Source: Rhodoferax sp.
GTDB taxonomy: Bacteria > Pseudomonadota > Gammaproteobacteria > Burkholderiales > Burkholderiaceae_C
Assembly: GCA_013791765.1 (NCBI GenBank)
Contig: VMTC01000053.1
Span: 1-51,721, forward strand
DNA length: 51,721 nucleotides
Reading direction: 5' to 3'
Shown here: in pieces, positions 3,001 to 47,795 of the stretch
Position numbering within the stretch: position 1 is the stretch's first letter
Layout: each line of letters opens with the position of its first letter
Made by a program: the position numbers and the translations under genes
Notes under the pieces: generated by a model
Database searches by the model: none
What the model was told of the DNA's origin: nothing
What the model saw: the letters and a program-made list of their open reading frames with translations, nothing else

Positions 3001-3709
3001 CGCAACGAGCGCCGTCAATGGCCTCAGCGACGCAGGCGGCAATTTTCTGGAAGGCGACAACGAAGGCGGATACGGCGGTTCGGCTGAAGGGTCCGCCGGC
3101 AACAACACGATCAACCTGAGCAACGCTGGCATTTACAGCGCCACGGGCGGCTACGACATTAACGGCGCTGGCGGCAACGACACCCTCACGGGCTCCGCTG
3201 CGGGGGACTGGATCTCTGGCGGCACCGGGGCGGACCTGATGACTGGCGGCGGCGGCTCGGACGATTTTGGCTTCGAGCAGGGCGACTCGCCAGCGGTGAC
3301 GGCCATGAGCCTGGGTGGCAACAGCATTCTTGACAACGGCGACACGTTCACCTTTGCCAATGGGGTTGACCGCATCACCGACCTTGTCACCGGCGAAGGC
3401 CTCGGCCTGAACGCCCTGAACGAAGATATGTCCGGCCAGGCGGGCGTGGGCTGGATGGGTGCGCAGAATCAGACGCCAGCCAACAGTGGTGTGCCCAGCA
3501 ACGGGCTGGCAGTGGACCAGGGTTTCTTCCTGACTCAGGGTAACTACAGCGGTACCGTATTCACCGTCAACAGCACTGGTGCCGATACGCTGGTGATGTA
3601 CGACGGCGACTTCTCCGGTGGCGTGACGCAAACCGGCATCGTGCTCAGCGGCGTCACGCTGGCGCAACTCAACGCTTACAGCGGCGGCAACTGGATCTCG
3701 CACATCTAA
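1..3709 (+). CDS. Giant cadherin-repeat / RTX-type secreted adhesin, 5' truncated by the window
   Basis: Extracellular adhesin-like protein, probably exported by the type I secretion system encoded directly downstream. The frame is open from base 2, so the start lies outside the window; about 1235 residues are visible. In order: four complete and one partial cadherin-like repeats (about 104-109 residues each, with recurring SGGADAAKF, STGALAF and NNVYDVTVT), a bacterial Ig-like region with NGAYALNENI and DTTRP, two glycine/aspartate-rich calcium-binding clusters (GGADTLTGGRGAD near base 2170, GGNDTLTGSAAGD near 3170), and an acidic, cysteine-free C-terminus ending in WISHI, as expected for an uncleaved type I secretion signal. 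It ends in TAA, followed by a strong terminator. Function in attachment or biofilm is inferred from the architecture; the ligand is unknown. Confidence 0.85.
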   Translation, partial: NVYDVTVTANDGAGGTTQQAIAVTVTGVNDNSPVITSNGGGATASLSVAENATAVTTVTATDSDVGDSKAYSISGGADAAKFIIDSTTGALAFAAAPDFEAPTDAGGNNVYDVTVTVTDSGTNTDTQAIAVTVTDLNNEVAPVITSNGGGATASLSVAENATAVTTVTATDSDVGDSKTYSISGGADAAKFSINPSTGALAFAASPDFEVPTDADGNNVYDVTVTVTDSGTNTDSQAIAVTVTGVNDNSPVFISGASVNVEENTTFVLPVIAVDGDLPTQSLSYSITGGGDFAKFTINASTGTLAFVAAPDFEAPTDAGGNNVYDVTVTANDGAGGITQQAISVTVTAVNDNNPVFTSAATANVAENSTAVLTVTATDADLPTPTLSYSISGGADSAKFTLNSTSGALAFTAAPNFEAPTDAGGNNVYDVMVTASDGTGRTTQQAIAVTVTDVFDNNPVIQSVSVNNGAYALNENIQATVTFDQIVNVTGAPELALNIGGVPKIASLVTGSGNNTLTFQYTVEAGLTDNDGVDVIANGLSLNGGSITSTSAVAALLTSAAATFAGATVDTTRPTEAGASFTESMNSTESISLSFSEAVTAFNTNGLTLHKNPDLSNGQGGWNNPTVISATGVSGSGTSTLTITTNTELTSTDVVRAYYDATWGNITDLAGNPLSSGEIWFGGSGASVIDLSEYGSNLPITLRGNGGADQLTGDSTNNAIIDGGGADTLTGGRGADTIRLVENGVDSRAYAKDTIVIGLGDSTVNGWDFIRGSGTSPTGTGFDISSVDATKHDVLSLPSNVIAANTGADIDGVDSGAIGKHSISGGIVTFKDASGTAILINQANSSDARSYLSANIHSPGTTVAFKLDGDSNGTIDSLVVFQDNGTIPLSNNFVVPDTVVVLAGLINVANATLGTAAGANVVQLVDTTAPYPVGFALTSNGIALNFAENTFATASVALSLKLNGSGADMAITGITGSGTTAMGFTTGTTLSASDWVLLNYTATSAVNGLSDAGGNFLEGDNEGGYGGSAEGSAGNNTINLSNAGIYSATGGYDINGAGGNDTLTGSAAGDWISGGTGADLMTGGGGSDDFGFEQGDSPAVTAMSLGGNSILDNGDTFTFANGVDRITDLVTGEGLGLNALNEDMSGQAGVGWMGAQNQTPANSGVPSNGLAVDQGFFLTQGNYSGTVFTVNSTGADTLVMYDGDFSGGVTQTGIVLSGVTLAQLNAYSGGNWISHI
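92..1375 (+). repeat. Tandem cadherin-like repeat array inside the adhesin gene
   Basis: Four tandem in-frame units begin near bases 101, 428, 752 and 1064, giving periods of about 327, 324 and 312 bp. Units 1 and 2 are very similar in DNA (the GTGATTACCAG and TGGCGCGACGGCATC blocks recur unchanged). Units 3 and 4 are more diverged, but the tract encoding GGNNVYDV is almost identical in all. Such an array can change length by recombination and is prone to assembly collapse. Confidence 0.85.
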
Positions 3710-14978: not shown

Positions 14979-15011
14979 TTCAGGATTGAGGCTGCGGCGG
15001 AGACGGTGTTT

Positions 15012-15478
15012 TTCTGGGATTTTTCCCCCACTCACTCCCCCAACCCCTCTCTCGCCCCGCCGGGCGAAAGAGGGGGGCTTCATGTGGCCGCGTGTTCTAA
15101 GGCGGGAACTCTGCGCTTGACTGTTCGCTGGCCTCAAAGTGCAGGCAACCCAGCGACCGGTCGCCGTAGCCAAATTCGCGTCGCAACAGTTGGCCTGCCC
15201 TGGATTTCTCGGGCAGCCGCGCACAAGGCGGCCACTCAGATCAAGCGCTGCCGCAACGCCAAGCGGCCTCAAGCCGCTTGCAGCCCATTGAAAGGAGCCT
15301 CAATCAGCTCCCCACGCAGTTTGATGGCAACGCGCCCGTGTGCGCCTTTTTCCCACCTTTAAAAACGCGGCCACATGTGGCTGTTTGCTCCCCTTTCCGC
15401 CCCGGCGGGGGTGGAGAGGGGTTGGGGGAGAGGGGGGGAATACAACGCATAAGAAACAAGAACGCCACAGATAACCGC
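15012..15478 (+). repeat. Element R1: 470-bp intergenic repeat with inverted hairpin arms, opposite orientation
   Basis: Copy of the R element in the 671-bp gap between aroE and lpxC, oriented opposite to R2-R4 in the window but still in the sense of the following gene. The left arm (15025-15077) contains a long hairpin around CCCCGCCGGGC. The right arm (15388-15438) contains one around CCCCGGCGGGGG. The outer sequences CCCCCAACCCCTCTC and GAGAGGGGTTGGGGG are inverted copies. The interior matches R2-R4 over about 300 bp (e.g. CAAAGTGCAGG, TTTGATGGCAACGCGCCCG). Relative to R4 it has lost one base near 15175, so the reading frame open in the other copies is broken here. No separate gene was found in this gap; the lpxC promoter must lie in or after the element. 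Confidence 0.85.
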
Positions 15479-15586
15479 TTTGGAAGTTCAGCCATCAAAC
15501 GGCGCCGTTTGACCGCTAAGCCTTGCTGCTCAATCCCCATCTCCCCAAGAAGTTGAGCCGTGCCAATGCCTTGATAAAATCAGGGC

Positions 15587-22507: not shown

Positions 22508-23559
22508 GCCGGGTGCTCGCTCGGTTGACCCGCTTGGGCCAGCGCCTTGGCACCCGCATCGGCGCCGGCATAGTCAAGCGTGGCATGCTGCAACACCTCC
22601 AGGCACAGCGCCGGGTAACTCATGCCAGCGGCCTTGGCCGCCATCGGCACCAGCGAATGCGGCGTCATGCCCGGTGAGGTGTTGATCTCCAGCAAATAGG
22701 GCGCGCGCGTGGCAGCGTCAATCATCACATCCACGCGGGCCCAGCCGCGGCAACCCAGCACCTGGTAAGCCTTGAGTGCCAGTGCTTGAATATGCGCTTC
22801 TTCACCTGCGGGCAAGGCGGCCGGCACCAGGTATTGCGTGGTGTCGGTGAAGTACTTGGCCTGGTAATCGTAATTACCGCCCGGCGCCACGATGCGTATC
22901 ACCGGCAAGGCATGCGCGCTGGCGCCCGACCCCAGCACGGGGATGGTTACCTCGTCGCCTTTGATGAACTGCTCGCACAGCACCATGGCGTCGTGCTGGG
23001 TCGCCAGGGCGTAGGCCGCGCCACACTGCTCAGTTTGCGTGACCTTGGTGAGGCCGATGGTGGAGCCTTCGCGGTCGGGCTTCACAATCATCGGGCTGCC
23101 CAGCAGGGCAAAGGCTTCGCTCGTGGCGACGGCGCTGTCCACCTGTTGCCATTCGGGTGTGGGCAAGCCTTCGCTGCGCCAGATGCGTTTGGTCATGACC
23201 TTGTCGATGCCGATGCTCGACGCCATCACGCCGGAGCCGGTGTAGGGGATGCCGAGCAACTCCAGCGCACCTTGCACCGTACCATCTTCGCCAAAGCGGC
23301 CATGCAGGGCAATGAAGCAGCGCGCAAAACCCTCAGCCTTGAGCTCGGCGAGGTCACGCTGCGCCGGGTCAAAGGCATGGGCGTCCACCCCTTGCGACAA
23401 AAGCGCCTGCAGCACGCCCTGGCCAGACATCAGCGACACCTCGCGCTCAGCGGAGGCGCCGCCCATCAGCACGGCGACCTTGCCCAGGCGCGCCGCAAGG
23501 CGCTCCATGGTGCGGCTGCGCTGCTGGCTCGCGCCAGCATTTTGATCAATTTGACTCAT
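22504..23559 (-). CDS. ddl: D-alanine--D-alanine ligase
   Basis: ATP-grasp ligase making the D-Ala-D-Ala dipeptide used by MurF; 351 residues. It has [19 protein letters not shown], the [10 protein letters not shown] loop, RVDVMID and [16 protein letters not shown]. The start overlaps the murC stop (ATGA), and the first codons MSQIDQNAG fall within a copy of the short repeat that also spans the end of murC. An internal ATG 18 codons on ([13 protein letters not shown]) is closer to the family N-terminus, so initiation there is possible. Confidence 0.95.
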
Positions 23560-23592
23560 AGCCCACGTCCTTCCTGCGCTAACAGCTCTGAA
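23540..23592 (-). repeat. Short AGCNN-N18-GGGCTA repeat spanning the murC/ddl junction
   Basis: On the minus strand, AGCTG (23587-23583), 18 bases, then GGGCTA (23564-23559) and TGAGTCAAATTGATCAAAATGC. The TGA is the murC stop and overlaps the ddl start, so the repeat supplies the last residues of MurC, the overlap itself and the first residues of Ddl. Confidence 0.65.
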
Positions 23593-24989
23593 ATTTGTAG
23601 CAAATCAAGTACCTTGGCCGCCACCGCGCCGATCGAACCTGCGCCCATGCACAGCACCACATCACCGTCCGTGGCGGTGTCCACGATGGCCTGCGGCATA
23701 TCGGCAATGTCATCGACAAACACCGGTTCGATGCGCCCAGCCACACGCAGCGCGCGCGCCAGCGTGCGGCCATCGGCCGCCACAATCGGTGTTTCGCCAG
23801 CGGCATAGACTTCGGCCAGCAACACCGCATCGGCTTGGGCGATCACCTTGATGAAGTCTTCAAAGCAATCACGCGTGCGGGTGTAGCGATGCGGCTGGAA
23901 CGCCAGCACCAGGCGCCTGCCCGCAAAGGCCCCGCGCGCCGCTGCCAGCGTCGCTGCCATTTCGACCGGGTGGTGACCGTAGTCGTCAACCAGGGTGAAC
24001 GTGCCGCCGTCCCGACTTGGGATCTCGCCATAGCGCTGGAAGCGCCGCCCGACGCCTTTGAAGTTCTCCAGTGCCCTTTGCACCGCGCCATCGTCAATGT
24101 TGAGTTCGACCGCCACGGCTATCGCCGACAAGGCATTGAGCACGTTGTGGCGCCCCGGCAGGTTCAGCACCACCGCCAAATCAGGCAGCACCACGCCGTT
24201 GCGGCGCTGCACCGTGAAATGCATTTGGCCGCCGACCGCACGCACGTCGACGGCGCGCACTTCGGCGCCTTCTTCAAAGCCGTAGCTGGTGATCGGGCAG
24301 GTCACTTGCGGCACGATCTCGCGCACGGCCGGATCGTCGGTGCACAAAATGGCGTTGCCATAAAAGGGCATGCGGTGCAGAAAATCGACAAAGGCCTGCT
24401 TGAGCCGGCCAAAGTCGTGGCCGTAGGTCTCCATGTGGTCGGCGTCGATATTGGTTACCACCGCCATCACCGGCGACAGGTTCAAAAACGAGGCGTCTGA
24501 CTCGTCGGCCTCGACCACGATGTAGTCGCCCTTGCCCAGACGCGCATTGGCGCCCGCGCTGTTCAGGCGCCCGCCGATCACGAAGGTCGGGTCGAGGCCC
24601 GCCTCGGCCAGCACGCTGGCAACCAGGCTGGTGGTGGTGGTCTTGCCGTGCGTGCCGGCAATGGCAATGCCGGTTTTGAGGCGCATCAGTTCAGCCAGCA
24701 TCAGGGCGCGCGGCACCACCGGAATGTGTTTCTCGCGCGCGCTCAGGACCTCGGGGTTGTCGGCCTGCACTGCGGTGGAGGTGACCACGGCGTCGGCGCC
24801 CGCCACATGATCGGCGTCATGGCCGACAAAGGTCTGGATGCCCAAGCCCGCCAGGCGTTGCAGCGTGGCACTGTCGGCCAAGTCCGAGCCCGAGATGGTG
24901 TAACCCAGGTTCAGCAAAATCTCGGCGATACCCGACATGCCGACGCCGCCGACACCGACAAAGTGGATGTGTTTGATGGCGTGCTTCAT
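23556..24989 (-). CDS. murC: UDP-N-acetylmuramate--L-alanine ligase
   Basis: Adds L-alanine to UDP-MurNAc in the cytoplasm; 477 residues. It has [19 protein letters not shown] at the start, the ATP loop [28 protein letters not shown] and the late [14 protein letters not shown]. The start ATG overlaps the stop of the long frame spanning element R2 (ATGA at 24986-24989) rather than the murG stop, as would be usual. An eight-base copy of its start region (ATGAAGCA) is found 716 bp upstream at the end of murG. Confidence 0.97.
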
Positions 24990-25705
24990 GCGGTAAGTTC
25001 CTGGATTGTGGTCTGAGGATATTGGCTATTTATTTTTGTCTTTTTGGCCTCTAGCCCACGTGCTATATGATTTGTATGCTCTTGTTTTTGCTTCATCTTT
25101 TGGCTACAGGGGAATTCATTGCTTGAATTACCACGTCGGTTATCTGCGGCGGTTTTGTTTCTTATGCGTTGTATTCCCCCCCTCTCCCCCAACCCCTCTC
25201 CACCCCCGCCGGGGCGGAAAGGGGAGCGAACAGCCACATTTGGCCGCGTCTTTAAAGGTGGGAAAAAGGCGCGCAGGGGCGCGTTGCCATCAAACGGAGT
25301 GCGCGCGTTCTCGATGCGCTGCACGCAGCTAGGGGCCAATTGGTGTTGAGGCAGCGCTTGATCTGCGTGGCGGGACTCCGGGCGACGGACCGAAAAATCC
25401 AGGCTTGGCGAGCTGATGCGAGGCCGAATTTGGCTACAGCGACTGGTCGCTGGGTTAGCGCCACTCTGAGGCCAGCGCGCAGTCAAGCGCAAAGTTCCCG
25501 CCTTAAAAAACGTGGCCAAATGAAGCCCCCCTCTTTCGCCCGGCGGGGCGAGAGAGGGGTTGGGGGAGTGAGTGGGGGAAAAATGGCAAGAAACACGCCC
25601 TGACCCGTCGACCACAACACATTCCAACATGCCAAGAACCCCAACCCTTCCCGCCAAGGACGGCCCAGCCGAGACAAACAAAACAGGACCAAGAACTTGC
25701 TTCAT
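24986..25705 (-). CDS. Element-spanning open reading frame between murG and murC (R2 frame)
   Basis: A 239-codon frame fills the whole murG-murC gap. Its ATG (25705) overlaps the murG stop, and its TGA overlaps the murC ATG, both as ATGA. The peptide starts [11 protein letters not shown] and is Pro/Arg/Gly-rich, with blocks shared by the R3 and R4 frames: [45 protein letters not shown] and GIQRIRNK. It ends [10 protein letters not shown] then IQELTA. I recognise no protein family. Composition and repeat origin argue for caution: it may serve only to keep ribosomes moving from murG to murC. Translation is not shown. Confidence 0.35.
25047..25080 (-). repeat. Short AGCNN-N18-GGGCTA repeat between R2 and murC
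   Basis: On the minus strand, AGCAT (25080-25076), an 18-base spacer, GGGCTA (25057-25052), then GAGGCCAAAAAG. It lies at the downstream end of R2 and encodes GLEAKK in the long frame; the R3 copy is at the matching place. Confidence 0.6.
25125..25610 (-). repeat. Element R2: intergenic repeat between murG and murC
   Basis: Second copy of the R element, in the sense of the mur genes, filling most of the 712-bp gap between murC (ends 24989) and murG (begins 25702). The arms lie at about 25175-25226 and 25525-25578, each a G/C-rich hairpin with outward GAGAGGGGTTGGGGG. The homologous region continues past the left arm with R3 (TATGCGTTGTAT, then CACGTCGG and TTATCTGC). Relative to R4 it lacks 12 bp (four codons) in the interior, keeping frame. 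The eight-base direct repeat ATGAAGCA flanks the whole insert (24982-24989 and 25698-25705 on the plus map). Confidence 0.85.
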
Positions 25706-26796
25706 CGCACCAACTCCTCGCAAGCCGCGACGATCTTCTGCGTAGCGTCAATCTTTTGAAGCTTTTTAGCCTCTAGCCCGCATGAAACAAGCGCAGTTCG
25801 CTCTACATTCAGTAGCATATCGGCCAACCATTCAGGACTCAACTCGGATTGGGCTTTGAGCCAGCCCGCGCCTTGATCGGCCAGAAAACGGGCATTCACA
25901 GTCTGGTGATCGTCCACGGCAGACGGGAACGGCACGAACAACGCTGCCGCACCAACTGCGGCGATCTCCGTCACGGTGCTGGCACCGGCGCGGCAGATCA
26001 CCAGGTCAGCCTCAGCCATGGCGCGCGCGGTGTCGTCAATGAACGGCGTCAGCTCGGCTTGCACGCCCGCTTGAGCGTAGTTGGCGCGCAGGGCCTCAAT
26101 TTGCTTGGCGCCGCTCTGGTGCGTCACTTGTGGGCGTTGCGCAAGTGGCAACAGCGCCAGCGCACGCGGCACGATCTCGTTCAAGGCCTTGGCGCCCAGG
26201 CTGCCGCCCAGCACCAGCAGTTTGAGCGGCCCGGTGCGATCGGCAAAGCGGGAGGTGGGATCGGGCACCTGCAGGAAGGCGGCGCGCAGCGGGTTGCCGA
26301 CCCAGATTGCGTTTGGCAGAACGTTGGGAAAAGCGCTGAACACGCGGGTGGCGAAGCGCGCCAGCAGCTTGTTGGCCATGCCGGCGACTGAATTTTGTTC
26401 ATGCAGGACCAAGGCCTTGCCCGCTAACACGCTCATCAGCCCGGCCGGCAGGGTGATGTAGCCGCCCAGGCCCAGCACCACGTCGGGCTGGACCCGGCGC
26501 AGCAGCGCCACGCTTTGCCAGCAGGCACGCGCCAGGCGCCAGGGCAAGCGCACCAGCGTGCCCAAGCCTTTGCCGCGCACCCCGGAGAAATTAATAGCCT
26601 CAAAGGCAAAGCCCTGCGCTGGCACCAACTGGCTTTCCATGCTGGGCTGAGTCGGCGTGCCGCTGCCACCGAGCCAGTGCACGCGCCAACCGCGCTCGCG
26701 CAGCGCTTGCGCCAGTGCCAGCCCCGGGAAGATATGGCCGCCGGTGCCACCGGCCATGATCAAAGCCACTCTTTGGTGTTTGTCATGGGCGGTCAT
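25702..26796 (-). CDS. murG: UDP-GlcNAc:lipid I N-acetylglucosaminyltransferase
   Basis: Peripheral membrane GT-B enzyme that converts lipid I to lipid II; 364 residues from the ATG at 26796, which overlaps the ftsW stop as ATGA. It has [46 protein letters not shown] and the donor site [16 protein letters not shown]. The C-terminal stretch [16 protein letters not shown] is encoded by a copy of the short repeat, in the same frame (GLEAK) as in the R2 and R3 frames, before the native-looking tail [14 protein letters not shown]. Confidence 0.96.
25763..25802 (-). repeat. Short AGCNN-N18-GGGCTA repeat inside murG
   Basis: On the minus strand, AGCGA (25802-25798), 18 bases, GGGCTA (25779-25774), then GAGGCTAAAAAGCTTC. 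It encodes the GLEAKKLQ part of the MurG C-terminus. Confidence 0.65.
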
Positions 26797-28028
26797 ACGC
26801 GCCCTCCATGCATCAATTGCCGATTTTCGTGGTCCACGCGCAGCACCACAGCAAGCGCCACCAGATTGACCAGAATAGCCGAGCCGCCGTAGCTCATCAA
26901 GGGCAGGGTCAGGCCCTTGGTCGGCAGCGCACCCAGATTGACGCCGATGTTGATGAAGGCCTGAAACCCCACCCAGATGCCCACGCCCTGCGCCACCAGC
27001 CCGGCAAACACCCGGTCCAGCGCAATCGCCTGACGGCCAATGTGCATCATGCGCCGGGTCAACCACAAGAACAGGCCAATGACCAAGACGATGCCGACCA
27101 GACCAAACTCTTCGCCAATCACGGCCAGCAAAAAGTCGGTGTGGGCCTCAGGCAGCCAATGCAGCTTCTCCACGCTGCCGCCCAAGCCGACACCAAAAAT
27201 CTCTCCTCGACCCACCGCAATGAGGGAATGGGTCAGCTGGTAGCCCTTGGCCAGCACATTCTCTTCACTCCAGGGGTCCAGGTAGGCAAAAATGCGCGCG
27301 CGCCGGTAGTCGTTGAAGGCGATCATCATCATGAAGGCCCCCACCAGCACGGTGACAATCAAAAAGAACATGCGGGCATTGACGCCACCCAGAAACAAGA
27401 TACCCATCGCAATCACAGCGATCACCATGAACGCGCCCATGTCGGGTTCGGCCAGCAGCAGCACGCCCACCAGCGCCACCGCGACGCCCATGGGCGCCAC
27501 GGCGCGAAAGAAATGCTCCTTGACATCCATCTTGCGCACCATGTAGTCGGCCGCGTACAGCAGCACCGTGAACTTGGCCAGTTCGGACGGCTGAAAACTC
27601 AAGGGGCCGAGCGCAATCCAGCGCCGCGCGCCGTAGACCACTTTGCCGACATGCGGGATCAACACCAGGGCCAGCAGGAGCAGCGACAGCACAAAGAGCC
27701 AGCGCGCCGACTTCTCCCACAGGCGCATGGGCACCTGATAGGCCAGGAGCGCGGCGACAAAAGCCATCGCCATCCAGAGCGCGTGGCGCACCAGGAAATA
27801 GCTATGGGTGTAGCGGGCAAAGCGTGGGTTTTCCGGCATCGCAATCGAGGCGGAATAGACCATCACCAGGCCCCAGGCCAGCAGCGCCACCGTGACCCAA
27901 AGCAGGGTCTGGTCAAAGCCCAGTACCGGGGTCGGGGCCGCGGCGGTGGCGGCGCGGCGTGTGGCACCCAGACGCACCGGCAGCGCATCGCCCACGGGAC
28001 CGGCCAACGCATGCAACCACTTTTTCAT
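26793..28028 (-). CDS. ftsW: Lipid II polymerase FtsW (SEDS family)
   Basis: Septal SEDS glycosyltransferase working with FtsI; 411 residues from the ATG at 28028, which overlaps the murD stop as ATGA. About ten membrane helices are visible (first [23 protein letters not shown]). SEDS motifs include [14 protein letters not shown], the large periplasmic loop with [20 protein letters not shown] and the late [18 protein letters not shown]. Position between murD and murG is canonical. Confidence 0.96.
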
Positions 28029-29547: not shown

Positions 29548-30726
29548 TTACCTGAGTTTCAGGGTGGACAAGCCGACCAGACACAAGAGCATGGTGATGA
29601 TCCAGAAGCGCACCACCACCTGCGTTTCTTTCCAGCCGCTTTTCTCGAAGTGATGGTGCAAGGGTGCCATCTTGATCAGACGCCGGCCCTGTCCATAGCG
29701 CTTCTTGGTGAACTTGAACCAGCTCACCTGGAACATGACCGACATCGCCTCCACCACAAAAATGCCGCCCATGATGGCCAGCACAATCTCCTGGCGCACG
29801 ATCACCGCAACCGTGCCCAAGGCGGCGCCCAGCGCCAGTGCGCCGACGTCGCCCATGAACACCTGGGCCGGATGGGTGTTGAACCACAAGAACGCCAGAC
29901 CGGCTCCCGACATGGCGGCACAAAAGATCAGCAACTCGCCCGCGCCGGGAATGTGCGGGAAGAACAGGTACTTGGAGTAAACCGCGCTGCCCGCGACATA
30001 GGCAAAAATCCCCAGGCAAGCCCCCACCATCACCACCGGCATGATGGCCAGCCCATCCAGACCATCAGTCAGATTGACGGCGTTGCTGGAGCCGACAATC
30101 ACCAGATAGGTGAGGATCACAAAACCAAGCACACCCAGCGGATAGCTGACCGACTTGAAGAACGGCAGCAGCAACCCGGCCTTGGGCGGCAAGTCCAGAT
30201 CAAAGCCCGATTGCACCCAGTTCAGGAACAGCTCCAGCACGCGCATATTGGTGTTCTCTGAAATGCTGAACACCAGGTACAGGGCGGCCAGCAGGCCAAT
30301 CACTGATTGCCAGAGGTACTTCTCACGCGAGCGCATGCCCTCGGGGTCTTTGTTGACCACCTTGCGCCAGTCGTCGACCCAGCCGATCGCGCCAAAACCG
30401 AGCATGACGAGCAGCACGATCCAGACAAAGCGGTTGCTCAGGTCGGTCCACAGCAGGGTGGAGAGCGTGATGCTGAACAGGATCAGGACGCCACCCATGG
30501 TGGGCGTGCCGCTCTTGACATGGTGCGAGTCCATGCCGTAGCCGCGAATCGGCTGGCCAATCTTGAGCTCGCTCAAGCGGCGAATCACGTAGGGGCCTGC
30601 CGCCAGGCCCACCAACAAGGCGGTGAGCGCGGCCATGACGGCGCGCAGCGTCAGGTACTGAAACACCCGCAGAAAGCCAAATTCGGGCGACACGGTCTGC
30701 AACCACTGGGCCAGGCTAGGCAGCAT
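29548..30726 (-). CDS. mraY: Phospho-N-acetylmuramoyl-pentapeptide transferase
   Basis: Polytopic enzyme forming lipid I from UDP-MurNAc-pentapeptide and undecaprenyl phosphate; 392 residues. It has [17 protein letters not shown], the aspartate pair [22 protein letters not shown], and the C-terminal [19 protein letters not shown]. The start ATG lies inside the last codons of murF (11-base overlap), implying translational coupling. Confidence 0.97.
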
Positions 30727-32158
30727 GGTCGGCCTCCTGGGTGGCTTGGGTTTGATTCACGATGGTCTCAACCACGCGTTCCATCTGCATGAAGCGCGAG
30801 CCCTTGACCAGCACACTGCCGACCATCGGCAGCTCGGCCAGCACGGCGGCTTGCAGCGCTGCCATGTCTGCAAAATGACGGCCGGAGCCGTAACTCGCCG
30901 CTGTTGCCTTGGACAACCCACCCAGCGTGAACAAGGATTCGATGCCAAGCGCGAGCGCGTGCTCACCCGCTTGGGCGTGAAACTGTGGCCCCTGGTCGCC
31001 CACTTCACCCATGTCGCCCAGCACCAGCAGGCGTGGTCCGGGCAAAGTGGCGAGCACGTCGATGGCCGCCTGGACTGAGTCGGGGTTGGCGTTGTAGCTG
31101 TCATCGACCAGCGTGATCTGACGCCCGCCAATCTGAACCAACAGGGCGCGCGAGCGGCCCTTGACCGGCTCAAAGGCAGACAGACCAAGCGCAATTTGCT
31201 TTAAAGGGACGCCCACCGCCAAGCTACACGCCAGCGCCGCCAATGAGTTCTTGACGTTGTGCAGGCCGGCAATCGGCAAGCTGTACTGCAGGGGACCAGA
31301 CGGCGTGCTGACCGCCACCTGCCAGCAAGCACCGAGCCAGTCGGCCTGCAGGCAACGCACTTCCAGCGCCGTAGCGCCAAGGTCGACCCCGCCAAAGCGC
31401 AGCGTGGCACGCGCGCCGGACTTTGCCGCCCACAACGGGCTGTACAAGTCATCCCCCGGGAACACCGCCACACCATTTGCTGGCAAGGCGTCAATGACGC
31501 AGCCGTTTTCTTGCGCGACCCGCTCCACCGTGGCCATGAATTCAAGGTGCTCGCGCTGCGCGTTGTTGACCAGCGCCACGGTGGGTTGGGCGATGGCGGC
31601 GAGCAGCGCAATTTCACCGGGATGGTTCATGCCGAGCTCGACCACCGCGACCTCGTGCTGGCGACGCAGACGCAAGAGGGTGAGCGGCACGCCGATGTCG
31701 TTGTTCAGGTTGCCTTGCGTGGCTAGAAAAGCCTGCGGCTTCCAGGCGCGCAGGATGGCGGCAATCATCTGCGTCACCGTGGTCTTTCCGTTGCTGCCGG
31801 TGACCGCTATCAAGGGCAGGGTGAACTGGGCGCGCCATTGAGTGGCCAGTTGCGCCAGCGCCAGTTTGGTGTCTGGCACCAGCAGAGCGGGCAGGCCCAG
31901 CGCGCGCAATTGGACCTCTATGTCGCTGCCTTCGCTGGCCTGGCAAATAGCTGCCACTGCGCCTTGTGCCTTGGCCTGCGCCAGAAAATCATGGGCATCA
32001 AAATGTTCGCCGCGCAAGGCCACGAACAGGTCGCCTGGTGCCAGGGTCCGGGTGTCGGTGTGCACGCGCTCGATCAAAACGTCGGCGCCGTCGGTCCCGG
32101 TCACACTGACCAGGCGTGCGTTGCCAAGCCAAGCGGCGGCCTGCTGCAAAGTCATCAT
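30716..32158 (-). CDS. murF: UDP-N-acetylmuramoyl-tripeptide--D-alanyl-D-alanine ligase
   Basis: Adds D-Ala-D-Ala to complete the UDP-MurNAc-pentapeptide; 480 residues. It has [19 protein letters not shown], the ATP loop [34 protein letters not shown] and [15 protein letters not shown]. Two ATGs stand in tandem; the first overlaps the stop of the R3-spanning frame (ATGA). murF normally starts at or over the murE stop, but here 733 bp of repeat element lie between. Confidence 0.97.
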
Positions 32159-32895
32159 CGTGTGAGCTCCCGGCTGGCTTTGGCGAACTGCACGTTTTCA
32201 GCCATTTTTTGAAGATTTTTGGCCTCTAACCCATGTGTTATATGCATAGTTTGCTCTTGTTTTTGCAGTTCTTTCTGGATACAGGAGAATGCATCGCTTG
32301 GATTGCCACGTCGGCTATCTGCAGCGTTCTTGTTTCTTATGCGTTGTATCCCCCCCCTCACCCCCACCCTCTCCACCCCCGCCGGGGCGGAAAGGGAGCT
32401 AACAGCCACATTTGGCCGTGTCTTTGAAGGTGGGAAAAAGGCGCGCAGGGGCGCGTTGCCATCAAACAGAATGGGGAGCTGATTGAGGCGTCTTTCACTT
32501 GGCTGCAGGCCGCTTGAGGCGACTTGGCGTTGCCGCAGCGTTTGATCTGCAAAACCGCCTTGTGGGTGGTTGGCCGGAAAATCCAGGGCAGGCCAACCGA
32601 TGCGAGACCAAACTTGGCTACAGCGACTGGTCGCTGGGTTACCGCCACTTCGAGGCCAGCGCCAAGTAGCGCGCAGATTTCCCACCTTTAAAGACGCGGC
32701 CAAATGAAGCCCCCCTCTTTCGCCCGGCGGGGCGAGAGAGGGGTTGGGGGTGTGAGTGGGGAAAAAATGGCAAGAAACAAGTCCTGACGAGGCAACGGTG
32801 ACGCCTTCAAAGACCCCATCAATTCCGGCAAGCAACGGCTCAACCAAGGGCAAGGCCAACCAATCCGGACCTAAGCAATCCATCATCGCGCTCAT
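32155..32895 (-). CDS. Element-spanning open reading frame between murE and murF (R3 frame)
   Basis: A 246-codon frame fills the murE-murF gap. Its ATG overlaps the murE stop (ATGA at 32892-32895) and its TGA overlaps the first murF ATG (ATGA at 32155-32158). It aligns with the R2 and R4 frames over most of its length ([60 protein letters not shown]) and ends with GLEAKNLQKM then SRELTR. Compared with R4 it has lost one base and then two bases in the right arm, changing about a dozen residues ([13 protein letters not shown]) but restoring the frame. Whether a stable protein is made is unknown. Confidence 0.35.
   Translation of the reverse strand: MSAMMDCLGPDWLALPLVEPLLAGIDGVFEGVTVASSGLVSCHFFPTHTPNPSLAPPGERGGLHLAASLKVGNLRATWRWPRSGGNPATSRCSQVWSRIGWPALDFPANHPQGGFADQTLRQRQVASSGLQPSERRLNQLPILFDGNAPLRAFFPPSKTRPNVAVSSLSAPAGVERVGVRGGIQRIRNKNAADSRRGNPSDAFSCIQKELQKQEQTMHITHGLEAKNLQKMAENVQFAKASRELTR
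32222..32255 (-). repeat. Short AGCNN-N18-GGGCTA repeat between R3 and murF
   Basis: On the minus strand, AGCAA (32255-32251), 18 bases, GGGTTA (32232-32227), then GAGGCCAAAAATCTTC. One base differs from the consensus core. Position relative to the R element equals that of the R2 copy. Confidence 0.6.
32306..32790 (-). repeat. Element R3: intergenic repeat between murE and murF
   Basis: Third copy of the R element, in the sense of the mur genes, in the 733-bp gap between murF and murE. The arms lie at about 32349-32397 and 32708-32763. The interior is the same length as R4. Direct repeats flank the insert: GCTCCCGGCT at 32166-32175 and 32902-32911, and CATCATCG at 32153-32160 and 32881-32888, i.e. 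the murE-end / murF-start junction sequence is present on both sides. Confidence 0.85.
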
Positions 32896-34481
32896 GCCCG
32901 CGCTCCCGGCTCGGCGGTAGCCCCAGCGTCAGGCGCAACCCACTGACCCAAGGCCAGCCGCACCTGCTGCGCATCCGAGAACGGCAGACGTCGGCCCGCC
33001 ACTTCCTGATACTCCTCATGGCCCTTGCCCGCTATCAGCAACACATCCTCCGGCGCGGCCTGCGCGAAGGCCTGCGCAATCGCCAGCGCCCGATCCGGCT
33101 CGACGGTGAGCGCCGGGTGGCCGGCCAGGCCCAGCAATATCTGGCTGATGATGACATCGGGCTTTTCGCTGCGCGGGTTGTCGCTGGTCACCACGACGCA
33201 GTCGGCATGGCGGGCGGCGATCGCACCCATCAGGGGCCGCTTGGCCGTGTCGCGGTCACCGCCACAGCCAAAAACGCACCACAGCCGGCCACCACGCTGA
33301 TCCGCCAAGGGGCGCAGCGCCAGCAGGGCCTTGGCCAGCGCGTCGGGCGTGTGGGAATAGTCCACAGCGGCCAAGGGCTGGCCCGGGGTGCCCCAACATT
33401 CCATGCGGCCGGGCACCGGGCTCAGGTCAGCGCAGGCCGCAACGGCGGCCCCCAAAGGCACACCCAGGCCACGCATGGCGGCGATCACACCCAACAGGTT
33501 GGCAACGTTGTAGCTCCCGATCAGCCGGGTCTGCAGCACATGGCGCTCGCCCACCTCGCCGGCGTCGTTCGCGCCCTCAGGCTCGCGCTCCAGCAGCGCA
33601 AAGCGCAAACCCTGTGCGCCATGGACGATGTCGCAGGCCTGCAAGCGGGCGGCGGTGAGGCAGGACACGGTCCAGACATCAAGCGCTTGGTCGCGCAGCG
33701 CGCCGGCCAATTGGGCGCCCTGTTCGTCGTCGATATTGATGACGCCAGACTGCAAGCCCGGCCACTGGAACAGGCGCGCCTTGGCCTGCCAGTAGTCAGC
33801 CATGGTGCCGTGGTAGTCCAGGTGGTCCTGCGTGAAATTGGTGAAAATCGCGGTGCGAATGCGGGTGCCGCTCAGGCGTTGCTCGTCCAGGCCGATGGAC
33901 GACGCCTCCAGCGCACAGGCCTTCAGGCCACGGCCCACAAAGCGGCGCAAGGCTTGCTGCAGTTGCACCGGGTCCGGCGTGGTCAGACCGGTCGCCACCA
34001 TGGCGGCCAGGGGATCGGCGTCGAGCGGGGCGCCGGTCAGCGGCGGCGTGCCAATGCCCAAAGTGCCCACCAGAGCGCAAGGGATGGGCGCCGCCAGTTT
34101 CAAATTTGACAGCGCTTGTGCCAGCCACCAGGCCGTTGATGTCTTGCCATTGGTGCCGGTCACGGCCAGCACATCGAGTTGGCGCGAGGGGTGGTCGAAA
34201 TACGCAGCGGCAATCGGGCCGCTGGCGGCCTTGAGACCGGGGTAAGTCGCGACCAGCTCACTGCTGAACGCATAAGGCTCGGCGCCAGCGCGCTCGACCA
34301 GACAGGCTCGTGCGCCGCTGTCCAAGGCTTGTGCGACAAACTGCCGCGCATCCGCAGCAGCACCTGGCCAGGCGATGAAGCCGTCGCCGGGCTGCAGCTT
34401 GCGGCTGTCGGTTTGCAGCGTGCCGGTGACGTGCTTGCGCAGCCAGTCGGCAGCGTCTTGCGGGCTTTGCAGTTCAGGCAT
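32892..34481 (-). CDS. murE: UDP-MurNAc-L-Ala-D-Glu--2,6-diaminopimelate ligase
   Basis: Adds meso-diaminopimelate to the stem peptide; 529 residues from the ATG at 34481, which shares one base with the ftsI stop (TGATG); a TTG one codon earlier is less likely. It has the ATP loop [43 protein letters not shown] and the diaminopimelate-specificity motif SDNPR, so this is the meso-A2pm form. The C-terminus ends EPGARA with the stop overlapping the R3 frame. Confidence 0.97.
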   Translation of the reverse strand: MPELQSPQDAADWLRKHVTGTLQTDSRKLQPGDGFIAWPGAAADARQFVAQALDSGARACLVERAGAEPYAFSSELVATYPGLKAASGPIAAAYFDHPSRQLDVLAVTGTNGKTSTAWWLAQALSNLKLAAPIPCALVGTLGIGTPPLTGAPLDADPLAAMVATGLTTPDPVQLQQALRRFVGRGLKACALEASSIGLDEQRLSGTRIRTAIFTNFTQDHLDYHGTMADYWQAKARLFQWPGLQSGVINIDDEQGAQLAGALRDQALDVWTVSCLTAARLQACDIVHGAQGLRFALLEREPEGANDAGEVGERHVLQTRLIGSYNVANLLGVIAAMRGLGVPLGAAVAACADLSPVPGRMECWGTPGQPLAAVDYSHTPDALAKALLALRPLADQRGGRLWCVFGCGGDRDTAKRPLMGAIAARHADCVVVTSDNPRSEKPDVIISQILLGLAGHPALTVEPDRALAIAQAFAQAAPEDVLLIAGKGHEEYQEVAGRRLPFSDAQQVRLALGQWVAPDAGATAEPGARA

Positions 34482-36214
34482 CAAAAACTCTCCTCTTCGG
34501 CCTGCGCCACGATCTGCGGGATGACCGACACGTCGGGTTGAATGCCCAGCATTTTCAGCGTCTGCTGCACGGTCTCACTAAAAACAGGTGCCGCGACCTC
34601 CCCACCAAAATACTTGCCGTCGCCCGGCTCATCAATCATGACCGCCACCACAATGCGCGGTTGCTCGATCGGCGCAAGGCCAACAAAGAACCCGCGGTAT
34701 TTTTTATCCGCATAACCTCGGCCCTCTTGCTTGTGGGCGGTCCCGGTCTTGCCGCCGACCGAATAGCCCATGGTCTGCGCCTTGGGTGCCGTCCCGCCTG
34801 GGCCGGTGGCCATGTGCAGCATATTGCGCACCGCGCGGGCGTGGCGGGCATCGATGACCTGCACCCCCGCAGCGCGCCCGCTGGACTTGAGCATGGTCAC
34901 AGGCACCAGTTCACCATCGCGCCCAAACACGCTGTAGGCATGGGCCAACTGGAACAGGCTGCTCGACAGGCCATAGCCATAACTCATGGTGGCCTGCTCA
35001 ATCGGGCGCCAGGTTTTGTAAGCCCGCAGGCGGCCACTGACAGCGCCGGGAAACGGCACGCTCGGCTTCTGCCCAAAACCGACCTGGTTGTACATCGACC
35101 ACATTTCGCGCGGTTGCATCTGCATGGCCAGCTTGACGGTGCCCACATTGCTGGATTTCTGGATCACCTCGCTGACGGTTAGCACGCCGTGCGGATGCGA
35201 ATCGCTGATGGTGGACCGACCGATGGAGATCCGCCCGGGCGCCGTCTGAATCGGCGTGGTGGGCTTCACCAGGCCCTTTTCCAGCGCCAGCGCGATCACG
35301 AACGGCTTCATGGTGGAGCCGGGCTCAAAGGTATCAGTGAGCGCGCGGTTGCGCAACTGGGCGCCACTGAGATTGCGTCGTTTGGCGGGCGAGTAGCTGG
35401 GGTAATTGGCCAGCGCCAGCACTTCACCACTCACCACGTCCAGCACCACCACGCTACCCGCCTTGGCCTTGTGCAGCAACACGGCATCACGCAGCTTCTG
35501 GTAGGCAAAAAACTGGATTTTGCTGTCAATGCTGAGCTGCAGATCACGTCCGTCCACGGGCTCAATCTGCTCCCCCACCGCCTCCACGACCTGGCCCAAG
35601 CGATTCTTGATGACGCGGCGTGAGCCGGCACGACCGGCCAGGTCTTTGTTGAAAGCCAGCTCGATGCCCTCCTGGCCCTTGTCTTCCACGTTGGTGAAGC
35701 CCACCACATGCGCGCTGGCCTCGCCTTCGGGGTACTGGCGCTTGTATTCCTTGCGCTGGTAAATGCCTTTGAGCTGCAGCGCCGTGATCTGCTTGGCCAC
35801 GCTGTCGTCGACCTGGCGCTTGAGCCAGACAAAAGTCTTGTCTTCATCCGCGAGGCGCTTGTCGAGCTCGGTCATGGGCATTTCCAGCAGTTTGGCCAAC
35901 TGCCGCAAGCGCGCCGGGTCGCGTTCCACGTCTTCGGGAATGGCCCAGATGCTGGGGGCCGCAATGCTGGACGCCAGGATCAGGCCATTGCGGTCCAGAA
36001 TGCGTCCGCGATTGGCCGGCATGGCCAGCGTGCGACCAAAACGCACCTGACCCTGCTTCAGGAAAAAGTCGTTGGCCACTACCTGGATATAGGCCGCGCG
36101 GGCGATCAGGCCGACCGATCCCAGCGCAATGGCAGCCACAATGAATTTGCTGCGCCACAACGGCGTGCGGCTCGCCAGCAAGGGGCTTGAGGTGTAGGCG
36201 ATGCTGCGGCTCAT
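34481..36214 (-). CDS. ftsI: Septal transpeptidase FtsI (PBP3)
   Basis: Class B penicillin-binding protein cross-linking septal peptidoglycan with FtsW; 577 residues. One N-terminal helix (KFIVAAIALGSVGLIARAAY) and a pedestal domain starting at RGRILDRNG precede the transpeptidase domain. The active serine is Ser300 in GSTMKPF, the second motif is SSN in IQKSSNVGTVK and the third KTG in GGKTGTAHK. The start overlaps the ftsL stop (ATGA at 36211-36214). Confidence 0.97.
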   Translation of the reverse strand: MSRSIAYTSSPLLASRTPLWRSKFIVAAIALGSVGLIARAAYIQVVANDFFLKQGQVRFGRTLAMPANRGRILDRNGLILASSIAAPSIWAIPEDVERDPARLRQLAKLLEMPMTELDKRLADEDKTFVWLKRQVDDSVAKQITALQLKGIYQRKEYKRQYPEGEASAHVVGFTNVEDKGQEGIELAFNKDLAGRAGSRRVIKNRLGQVVEAVGEQIEPVDGRDLQLSIDSKIQFFAYQKLRDAVLLHKAKAGSVVVLDVVSGEVLALANYPSYSPAKRRNLSGAQLRNRALTDTFEPGSTMKPFVIALALEKGLVKPTTPIQTAPGRISIGRSTISDSHPHGVLTVSEVIQKSSNVGTVKLAMQMQPREMWSMYNQVGFGQKPSVPFPGAVSGRLRAYKTWRPIEQATMSYGYGLSSSLFQLAHAYSVFGRDGELVPVTMLKSSGRAAGVQVIDARHARAVRNMLHMATGPGGTAPKAQTMGYSVGGKTGTAHKQEGRGYADKKYRGFFVGLAPIEQPRIVVAVMIDEPGDGKYFGGEVAAPVFSETVQQTLKMLGIQPDVSVIPQIVAQAEEESF

Positions 36215-45930: not shown

Positions 45931-47028
45931 CTATTTTGGCGTTGTTGCCTTGATTTTGGCGCGCGGGTGGGCCGCATCGTAGGCCTTGGCCAGATGCTGA
46001 AAGTCGAGCCGGGTGTAGACCTGGGTCGTGGTGATGCTGACGTGGCCCAGCAGTTCCTGCACCGCGCGCAAGTCGCTGCTGGACTGCAGCAGGTGGCTGG
46101 CAAACGAGTGGCGCAGCATGTGCGGATGCACCGGCGTGCTCAAACCTGCTTGCTGGCTACGCTGGCGCAGGCGTTGCCAGATCGACTGGGCGCTTAAGCG
46201 GGTGCCGTTGCGCCCGATGAAGAGGGCGGCTTGAAGGCCACCATCAGGGTCGGCTTGCCCCGACTCTGTGACTTTGAGCGCCTGATCGCGCAGCGCCAGC
46301 CAGTGCCTCAGGGCCAGCACCGCCTTGGCGCCCACCGGCACGCTGCGGCGTTTGCTGCCTTTGCCGAGCACATGCGCCTCGCCATCCTGCAAGTCAATCC
46401 AGCCGCGTGCGTTGCCGCTGGCCACCGCGTCCAGCCCGGTCAGCTCGCCTACCCGCAGACCCGCGCCATAGAGCAGCTCGACGATGGCCGCGTCGCGCGC
46501 TTCCAGCCACGGGTCGCCGCTGCTGTTGGCAAAACTGGCCAGTTGCACCGCGTCGTCCACACTCAGCGCCTTGGGTAGCGGCTTGCCGGCCTTGGGCGCG
46601 CGCACGCCCTGCACCGGGTTGCTGCTGACCAGGCCTTCGCGCCCCAGCCAGACGTAAAAACCGCGCCAGCCCGACAGAATCAAGGCAATGCCGCGGCCAC
46701 TGCGCCCGCCTGAATTCATCTGCGCCACCCAGCGCCGGATGTGGCTGTTTTGCACCTGAAGGAGCTCGACGCCGGCCTGCGCGGCGTGCTGGGACAACTT
46801 CTGCAGATCCAGCGCATAGAGTTCGACCGTGCGTTGCGCCAAGCGCTTTTCAACGCGCACGTGTTCGAGGTAGCGCTCAATCAAACCCGTCCCTGCGCTG
46901 GTCGCTTCGCCGCGTGCGAGAACCTCCGGTTGGGTACCCAACGCTGTGCTGGCCGCTGCGGGAACTGTGCCTTGCCGGTGGCCGCCTCGCGCAGCGGCAA
47001 TTGCACGGTTATAGGGTGCGTTCGTCAT
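45931..47028 (-). CDS. xerC: Tyrosine recombinase XerC
   Basis: Site-specific recombinase that resolves chromosome dimers at dif with XerD; 365 residues. The N-terminal 40 residues (MTNAPYNRAIAAARGG...) exceed the usual length, but the start overlaps the stop of the upstream R4 frame as ATGA, supporting it. SAM-like core-binding domain (IERYLEHVRVEKRLAQRTVELY) then the catalytic residues: GAGLRVGELTGL (Arg), GKGSKRRSVP (Lys), HPHMLRHSFASHLL (His-x-x-Arg), LGHVSITTTQVYTR (His and nucleophile Tyr). In E. coli xerC directly follows the DUF484 gene; here R4 separates them. Confidence 0.95.
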   Translation of the reverse strand: MTNAPYNRAIAAARGGHRQGTVPAAASTALGTQPEVLARGEATSAGTGLIERYLEHVRVEKRLAQRTVELYALDLQKLSQHAAQAGVELLQVQNSHIRRWVAQMNSGGRSGRGIALILSGWRGFYVWLGREGLVSSNPVQGVRAPKAGKPLPKALSVDDAVQLASFANSSGDPWLEARDAAIVELLYGAGLRVGELTGLDAVASGNARGWIDLQDGEAHVLGKGSKRRSVPVGAKAVLALRHWLALRDQALKVTESGQADPDGGLQAALFIGRNGTRLSAQSIWQRLRQRSQQAGLSTPVHPHMLRHSFASHLLQSSSDLRAVQELLGHVSITTTQVYTRLDFQHLAKAYDAAHPRAKIKATTPK

Positions 47029-47795
47029 GGCGCACCATCCGCCGGTGTGCGCGACGGCGCATGAATCTTCCGCTCTGGTGTTTGGGATATTTCTTGACCG
47101 TCGTGGTCAACACTGATCGATCGAATCACGCGGCTTTGAGCAGCATTTCTATTTTTTCTGCGTTGTATCCCCCCCCTCTCCCCCAACCCCTCTCCACCCC
47201 CTTTGGTGCGGAAAGGGGAGCGAACAGCCACATTTGGCCAACTCTTTGATGGTGGGAAAAAGGTGCGCACGGGCGCGTTGCCATCAAACAGAGTGGGGAG
47301 CTGATCGAGGCGTCTTGCACTTGGCTGCAGGCAGTTTGAGGCGAGTTGACATTGCCGCAGTGCTTGATCTGCGTGGCCGCCTTGTGGGCGACAGACCGGG
47401 AAATCCAGGGCAGGCGAGCTGATGCGAGGCCAAACTTGGCTACAGCGACTGGTCGCTGGGTTAGCGCCACTTTGAGGCCAGCGAACAGTCAAGCGTAAAG
47501 TTCCCGCCTTTAAACACGCGGCCACATGAGGCTCCCCTCTTTCGCCCGGCGGGGCGAGAGAGGGGTTGGGGGTGTGAGTGGGGAAAAAATGGCAAAAAAC
47601 AAGCCCTGACCCGACGACCACACGCCGCGAAATTTGGCGATGGCGACTGGTCCCTGCGTTGCCTTCACTTTGAGGCCAGCGCACAGTCAGGTGCAAGGTT
47701 CCCACCTTCCAACACGCGGCCACATGAAGCCCCCCTCTTTCGCCCGGCGGGGCGAGAGAGGGGTTGGGGGAGTGAGTGGGGACAAGAACGTTCAA
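47025..47795 (-). CDS. Element-spanning open reading frame before xerC (R4 frame)
   Basis: A 256-codon frame (nominal TTG start at 47795) crosses element R4 and stops with TGA overlapping the xerC ATG (ATGA at 47025-47028). It is open further upstream and is in the same phase as the DUF484 gene beyond its TAG stop. The repeated block [22 protein letters not shown] occurs twice because the element is partly duplicated; otherwise it aligns with the R2 and R3 frames. The last 45 residues differ from those copies. No family recognised; translation not demonstrated. Confidence 0.3.
   Translation of the reverse strand: MNVLVPTHSPNPSLAPPGERGGLHVAACWKVGTLHLTVRWPQSEGNAGTSRHRQISRRVVVGSGLVFCHFFPTHTPNPSLAPPGERGEPHVAACLKAGTLRLTVRWPQSGANPATSRCSQVWPRISSPALDFPVCRPQGGHADQALRQCQLASNCLQPSARRLDQLPTLFDGNAPVRTFFPPSKSWPNVAVRSPFRTKGGGEGLGERGGIQRRKNRNAAQSRVIRSISVDHDGQEISQTPERKIHAPSRTPADGAP
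47140..47619 (-). repeat. Element R4: intergenic repeat between the DUF484 gene and xerC
   Basis: Fourth copy, in the sense of the genes, inside the 815-bp gap between xerC and the DUF484 gene. The arms lie at about 47168-47220 and 47529-47584. The interior is nearly colinear with R3. It lacks the short repeat and the 100-bp tail that R2 and R3 share on the downstream side. Confidence 0.85.
47571..47787 (-). repeat. Partial tandem duplication of the R-element end (R4')
   Basis: About 215 bp behind R4 repeat its upstream end again: GGCGACTGGTC, TTTGAGGCCAGCGCACAGTC, GTTCCCACCTT, CACGCGGCCACATGAAG, then a third hairpin arm at about 47729-47780. It is more diverged than R4 itself and lacks the other arm, so it is an incomplete second copy or an unequal crossover product. 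The rest of the gap up to the DUF484 stop (47844) shows nothing. Confidence 0.75.

Follow-up and report, generated by a model that had tools for sequence, protein, structure and literature searches.

MITE-like hairpin repeats at operon junctions in Rhodoferax: an open frame kept without constraint on the peptide

Two bridged mur junctions

The window analysed here (the whole 51,721-nt stretch of DNA, from the Rhodoferax genome G000) contains a cell-wall/division cluster in which the murG/murC and murE/murF gaps are each filled by a 700-740 bp repeat, with one sense frame running from ATGA to ATGA (copies R2 and R3; Table 1). An earlier note made from the letters alone had described a single frame, of 239 codons in R2 and 246 in R3, that fills each gap exactly with ATGA at both ends, and this was confirmed on the minus strand. 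As read from the sequence, a Shine-Dalgarno-like motif (AGGAG, AGGAA or GGGAG) starts 12-13 nt ahead of the ATG of each of these junctions. The five other frames of R2 and R3, two in sense and three in antisense, are each interrupted by 4-10 stops, and the chance of a start-stop chain across the two gaps is ~0.01 in shuffles. Together with the control copies described below, the shuffles rule out a chance open frame for the bridges.

The difference in length between R2 and R3 is frame-neutral, as the note had it, and the alignment shows the pair of -1 and -2 changes that sets the right arm of R3 apart from that of R2. Since other copies are separated by the same kind of pair, this is a shared variant of the element and not one private to R3. 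Direct repeats of 8 bp, TGCTTCAT at R2 and CATCATCG at R3, fall on the start-stop junction itself, so that selection could explain them as well as target-site duplication. By eye, the likeness of the R2 and R3 ends (Shine-Dalgarno-like motif plus ATGA) seems longer than 8 bp, in which case a plain 8-bp duplication may not be the whole story. The 3' flank of R2/R3 (window 25041-25140) also resembles, by eye and in the same reading frame, the 3' end of murG (25740-25800), which would reflect either duplicated murG sequence or a common REP-like motif.

Table 1. Features of the window discussed in the text (window positions; - is the minus strand)
Feature	Position	Strand	Remarks
R1	14996..15500	+	same element, between aroE-like gene and lpxC; no bridge; one stop in element frame
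murC, R2 downstream partner	23556..24989	-	ORF list and Pfam
ATGA, bridge stop/murC start overlap	24986..24989	-	AGGAA at 24998-25002; read from sequence
R2 bridge ORF	24986..25705	-	720 nt, 239 codons; overlaps murG stop and murC start, each as ATGA
R2 inverted-repeat arm, mRNA 3' side	25174..25265	-	...GGAGAGGGGTTGGGGGAGAGGGGGGG; pairs with 5'-side arm in predicted hairpin
R2 inverted-repeat arm, mRNA 5' side	25495..25582	-	CCCACTCACTCCCCCAACCCC...; pairs with other arm in predicted hairpin
ATGA, murG stop/bridge start overlap	25702..25705	-	AGGAG at 25714-25718; read from sequence
murG, R2 upstream partner	25702..27066	-	listed ORF; start not settled
murF, R3 downstream partner	30716..32158	-	ORF list and Pfam
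R3 bridge ORF	32155..32895	-	741 nt, 246 codons; overlaps murE stop and murF start, each as ATGA
R3 Shine-Dalgarno-like GGGAG	32903-32907 and 32167-32171	-	before the two ATGA junctions
murE, R3 upstream partner	32892..34484	-	ORF list and Pfam
R4	47025..47795	-	open frame ending in ATGA on xerC start; includes duplicated half element

The earlier note had grouped a further copy, R4, with R2 and R3. Its ending fits, since R4 does run into the xerC start as ATGA (...GCCATGACG), but no start-stop overlap joins it to the stop of the upstream DUF484 gene, so its 5' end is uncoupled. The fourth copy, R1, lies between an aroE-like gene (our label for a shikimate-dehydrogenase-like gene) and a gene that we take to be lpxC. 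Altogether, positions 14996-47790 carry four copies and one half copy of the element within 33 kb of this cluster, and roughly 16 element sites can be counted from matches in the same 4.17-Mb genome. The window also starts with tandem direct repeats of ~312-327 bp (positions 1-1377), inside a long ORF at 14-3709.

A MITE-like element

The repeat is MITE-like: it consists of two ~90 bp inverted arms that are predicted to pair in a single giant hairpin, and it has no match in Pfam. When the 720-base R2 sequence was used as a query, regions 189-280 and 510-597 matched each other's copies on opposite strands, as terminal inverted repeats do, and the core RNA (25125-25610, minus strand) is predicted to fold into one long hairpin of -242.7 kcal/mol (z -8.75). 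The R2 and R3 ORFs gave no hit against Pfam at E 0.001, hence no transposase was found, which is typical of MITEs, as is the dispersal of 52 matching pieces over the element's own genome. A search of the window with Rfam at gathering scores returned no RNA family. Copies catalogued in four genomes range from ~305 to 740 bp, and a C-rich tract opens the 5' arm in sense, as read from the sequence.

In a set of 60 genomes (the element's own, 35 others of the genus and 24 from other families of the order), the query matched in 24, mainly via its arms. The core matched in 5 of 89 genomes of the genus (G000, G068, G071, G085 and G028), the match in G028 being one single stretch of 35 nt.

Bridges and controls in four genomes

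In four genomes, copies of the element were catalogued, stops were counted in all frames, the element frame was scored and neighbouring genes were called by a hexamer model (the names addB, addA, hpnD, hpnE, moaD, cysW, cysA, sdaA and those of the mur genes are readings of Pfam hits). A copy was considered chained when each start overlapped the preceding stop by 4, 1 or 8 nt, all in-frame starts around the predicted start being tried. By this strict rule, 13 of 13 complete copies at murG/murC, murE/murF, addB/addA and hpnD/hpnE are chained, against a null of 0.003-0.08 per copy. The downstream overlap is 4 nt in nine of them (murG/murC, murE/murF and hpnD/hpnE) and 8 nt in the four addB/addA copies, and the chain at hpnD/hpnE in G085 takes three ORFs. 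None of 20 control copies (element in sense in 8, antisense in 12) is chained at eleven other co-directional pairs, namely moaD/moaE, cysW/cysA, SirB/norB, aroE-like/lpxC, SLT/GST, sdaA/SLT, acyl-CoA dehydrogenase/CoA-transferase and four unnamed ones.

Frame-breaking follows the pattern that the earlier note predicted for copies between co-directional genes and copies elsewhere. The element frame is free of stops in 25 of 31 sense copies between co-directional genes vs 2 of 26 in other settings (Fisher P 2e-8), with the provisos that orthologous copies are not independent, that the first figure becomes 22/28 without three hand-assigned edge copies and that L218, which is among the two open copies from other settings, is a partial one. 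These edge copies, all from G071 (L135, L215 and L219), were assigned to the sense class on the basis of orthology; the stop count of L215, in which the anchor had slipped, was set to 0 by hand, its frame being open to the contig end. Five partial contig-edge copies lacking a 5' anchor are excluded from this count, the catalogue leaves out short hits (L068, L069 and L227) and duplicate loci (L232 and L226), and the orientation of the element is ambiguous for some copies (anchor errors of, e.g., 10 against 12).

Other sites are less clear-cut. At DUF484/xerC (3 copies) and exbD/lpxK (4), all seven copies have a long ORF whose terminal ATGA includes the downstream start, and just one of the seven is also chained upstream, by four ORFs of doubtful meaning (null 0.07); two stops interrupt the element frame of the exbD/lpxK copy in G000. 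Since these copies are mostly unchained upstream, and 3 of the 20 controls likewise have a long ORF that ends on a possible start, the two sites lend weak support. Copies at moaD/moaE are unchained in all three species that have them (relatives have gaps of 4-8 nt there in 5 of 7 cases), and so is, by eye, an independent MITE at addB/addA in G032, so the bridging rule, strong at murG/murC and at the four sites together, is not universal. In that last case (L341), the addA frame is open upstream, by eye, through the 3' half of the MITE, and a possible reading is that addA has gained an N-terminal extension instead of a bridge. Element-free relatives at addB/addA are two, one with a 52-nt gap. 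The gaps of relatives at cysW/cysA, SLT/GST and moaD/moaE are mixed, which means that closeness there is by itself no predictor of bridging.

A frame kept, a peptide ignored

Between copies at the same site, bridge dN/dS is 0.65-1.20, compared with 0.08-0.09 for murC (the set comprises complete ORFs and one partial, GC_G071p). Differences between bridges are spread evenly over codon positions 1/2/3 (354/399/374 of ~1873 each, in 11 partly overlapping pairs), those between murC genes being 23/19/130 and 24/23/136 of 477 each. In 9 of the 11 bridge pairs the two sequences are in the same phase over just 67-95% of aligned sites (100% in the other two), because compensated indels put part of the interior in another frame, and yet both copies are open. 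If substitutions were random, ~1.5-3.8 new stops would be expected per ortholog path; none is seen in seven paths, which amounts to a combined 10^-8.6 if the paths are taken as independent.

Taken with the counts of open copies given above, these values support the view of the earlier note, which had also proposed the dN/dS measurement, that selection acts on uninterrupted translation over the peptide: a dN/dS near 1 and flat codon positions indicate that it is openness that is maintained. The obvious objection is that the element carries a functional small protein, as might be surmised from a frame that is open in many copies and species and from a 16-residue peptide of the 5' arm that recurs among copies. 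We find this hardly credible, and a functional peptide was rejected in view of the dN/dS, the codon positions, interiors that are partly out of phase between open copies and the absence of any Pfam match to the ORFs of R2 and R3; other inserts at murG/murC, which are discussed below, behave likewise.

Sister species and probable exchange of cores

Three sister species (G068, G071 and G085) carry the element at both murG/murC and murE/murF, which makes four species with that of the window. Those of G068 and G085 are complete and all open in the bridge frame, and the G071 copies at both mur sites are split by contig ends, with the sequenced parts open. The frame survives even in a G068 copy with a nested insert (an 81-nt net alignment gap) and in one from G071 that contains a nested repeat. 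Within the MITE, a nested GGTCAGAGCCCAAATTCGCC...GGTGTCTGACCCC repeat is found in G068 (L134:6230-6330) and a similar one in G001 (L410), and the frame is open in both.

Flanks and cores tell different histories. Identity of the 5' flanks is higher between orthologs (0.66-0.80) than between paralogs (0.61-0.65), and the same goes for the murG/murC 3' flanks (0.73-0.84 vs 0.60-0.70); at the murE/murF 3' flanks orthologs are not clearly above paralogs (0.62-0.72). Core identity is 0.80-0.83, equal within and between sites, and cores mix between sites on the tree, from which it seems that exchange of cores between sites probably occurs and leaves the frame open. Bridge dS (0.10-0.37) is below that of murC (0.48-0.52), hinting at homogenisation or at a constraint on the DNA/RNA.

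Mixing of this kind means that gene conversion may spread open frames and make copies less independent, and together with the low bridge dS it invites the reading that the open frames are a by-product of the element's composition or of the spread of an open master copy, with gene conversion keeping them open and no selection at the level of the site. We regard this as very unlikely, because orthologous non-bridge sites in the same genomes (SLT/GST in four species, sdaA/SLT in three) are unchained, with 1-4 stops breaking the element frame, because the 5' flanks and the murG/murC 3' flanks follow the site and remain open, and because murG/murC inserts of other kinds obey the same rule.

The murG/murC junction in relatives

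The latter point rests on a survey of murG/murC across the genus (51 loci, from 50 of the 60 genomes plus G085, of which L100 of G008 was dropped for lack of a murG hit) and the family (88 of 118 genomes of other genera, comprising the 28 with the best scores and 60 chosen down the list). The junction is an ATGA overlap in 36 of 50 cases in the genus and 68 of 88 in the family; murE/murF in relatives is ATGA, an 8-nt overlap or a gap of 1-5 nt, depending on the start chosen. With ATGA being usual in element-free relatives, the ATGA pair of R2/R3 probably copies an old junction. To call the elements domesticated couplers, as the earlier note did, is therefore an overstatement: the evidence is for an existing arrangement that the element preserves rather than for an added function.

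Where murG and murC are separated by at least 10 nt, 28 of 31 gaps are chained vs 6.3 expected (dinucleotide shuffles with random phase; P 4e-22 if junctions are independent, as assumed for all P values unless stated). In the genus, 13 of 14 gaps are bridged, all 1 mod 3 and 16 to 718 nt long, and 9 of 10 are chained when one is counted per insert class, as grouped by the author (1.6 expected; P 2e-9). The family has 19 gaps, two of which, under 10 nt, were left out, and 15 of the other 17 are bridged (L464 is a 1-nt overlap); in four of these, L455, L482, L499 and L500, the bridge is a series of two or three ORFs. For comparison, 6 of 106 ordinary co-directional gaps of 10-800 nt devoid of the element are chained, even with a generous choice of starts. 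The unchained murG/murC gaps are those of G062 (92 nt), L460 (23 nt) and G201 (262 nt, in which the ORF stops 2 nt before murC). Many of the assemblies are drafts, and bridges are also present in one- or two-contig genomes (G010, G079 and G085).

What fills these gaps, by eye, is diverse: the MITE family (also in G001 and G010), REP-like sequences (G079 and G004), what seem to be duplicated murC 5' ends, and spacers of short length. In other genera, the bridge ORFs ahead of murC often start like murC itself, with MKHA(I/V)..IHFV or similar, again by eye (L421, L430, L439, L447, L474, L491, L455, L482, L499 and L500). This gives them the look of duplications of the murC 5' end, some of which surround a small palindrome.

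A proposed hand-over of the ribosome

What can be read from the DNA (the anatomy of the bridges, their conservation in four species, retention of the frame relative to controls, a peptide free of constraint and the recurrence of bridges with other kinds of insert) would find its simplest common cause in termination-reinitiation. The element would have inserted where the downstream gene is translated in this way, at a start-stop overlap. In sense orientation it supplies a stop-free frame, and each end of R2 and R3 has a Shine-Dalgarno-like site with a start-stop overlap. One hand-over would become two in series. A ribosome would (i) end the upstream gene and restart at the overlapping ATG/GTG, (ii) read a throw-away peptide of ~130-250 residues through the hairpin and (iii) terminate at the bridge stop and restart on the downstream gene. 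The ribosome would thus not be kept in frame between the genes, as the earlier note had put it, but would terminate and restart at each overlap, in some genera on two or three ORFs in series. Selection would then purge stops and net frameshifts, and be indifferent to the peptide, because the downstream gene, an essential one at the mur sites, would otherwise starve and a long untranslated stretch could expose the mRNA to Rho.

That last danger might be the whole explanation, if the bridge merely holds ribosomes on the mRNA against Rho termination in a long C-rich insert and the overlaps matter little. This would suit the C-rich start of the 5' arm and the long frames at exbD/lpxK and xerC, which have no 5' coupling in 6 of 7 copies. 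We consider it unlikely, since bridges span gaps of just 16, 19, 31 and 34 nt, which are too short for Rho loading, and since start and stop overlap exactly at both ends, with chains of two to three ORFs that are exact at every joint. In one report (PMC10666635), three E. coli pairs lost 80-90% or all of their re-initiation when a gap of 38 nt lay between the genes, and reporter work showed strong loss at gaps of ~20-38 nt. That gaps of 16-34 nt are bridged as well favours re-initiation over Rho alone. Rho protection would not be the main reason for the bridges and may add to it for inserts of 400-700 nt.

We thus think it likely that insertions persist at translationally coupled junctions if they split one termination-reinitiation event into several, the frame being kept and the peptide ignored. 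A bolder version, for which we see the chances as evenly balanced, is that selection on the hand-over at certain essential junctions, chiefly murG/murC, is so strict that nearly any tolerated insertion (a MITE, a REP-like repeat or a local duplication) must form a chain of throw-away ORFs, in which case operons would gather gene-like, translationally transparent ORFs that are free of peptide constraint and kept only for delivering ribosomes.

These bridges would amount to a natural experiment on how strict the requirement for translational coupling is in vivo, in which apparently separate insertions at one essential junction have reached the same solution. They would also (i) account for a class of 'hypothetical proteins' lacking any function as proteins and (ii) provide a sequence-only test for operon junctions that depend on termination-reinitiation.

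Comparison with known systems

Several known systems resemble parts of this picture, the nearest being MIRUs (mycobacterial interspersed repetitive units), repeats with a unit of under ~100 bp. They were the closest match found in the literature on this element family or on bridged insertions. A 2025 review (PMC12548453, citing Supply et al. 1997) describes them as apparently mobile repeats whose insertion at a start codon places their internal ORF at -4 nt to the downstream gene, to which it is coupled, and is said to affect expression little. Insertion at a start codon and an internal ORF coupled at -4 nt are features of 9 of the 13 chained copies. Unlike MIRUs, the Rhodoferax-type elements are ~305-740 bp long, have long inverted arms and a giant hairpin and occur in Betaproteobacteria; moreover, frame retention, the lack of peptide constraint and the recurrence with other inserts were measured here between species.

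Termination-reinitiation at ATGA overlaps, which depends on short distance, is described between adjacent genes in the parts of PMC10666635 and PMC6728339 available to us. The hand-over proposed here at -4/-1/-8 overlaps would be the same, and a start-stop overlap is likewise present in the bridges, but an insert is crossed by throw-away ORFs, at times several in series. Rickettsia palindromic elements, as described in PMC10969869, also stay open in a host reading frame, but do so inside genes and in frame with the host ORF, whereas bridges are separate ORFs between a stop and a start. The same source mentions the Chunjie MITE, which like ours is inserted in an operon (in Geobacter) and whose cited title speaks of undisturbed operon structure. 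As for the betaproteobacterial repeat element BRE, a ~90-bp repeat, it is listed with four copies in R. ferrireducens T118 in PMC3110155.

In conclusion, the idea is that of MIRUs, met here in another phylum and in a long hairpin MITE, with comparisons between species that point to selection on the frame only and with other inserts that behave alike.
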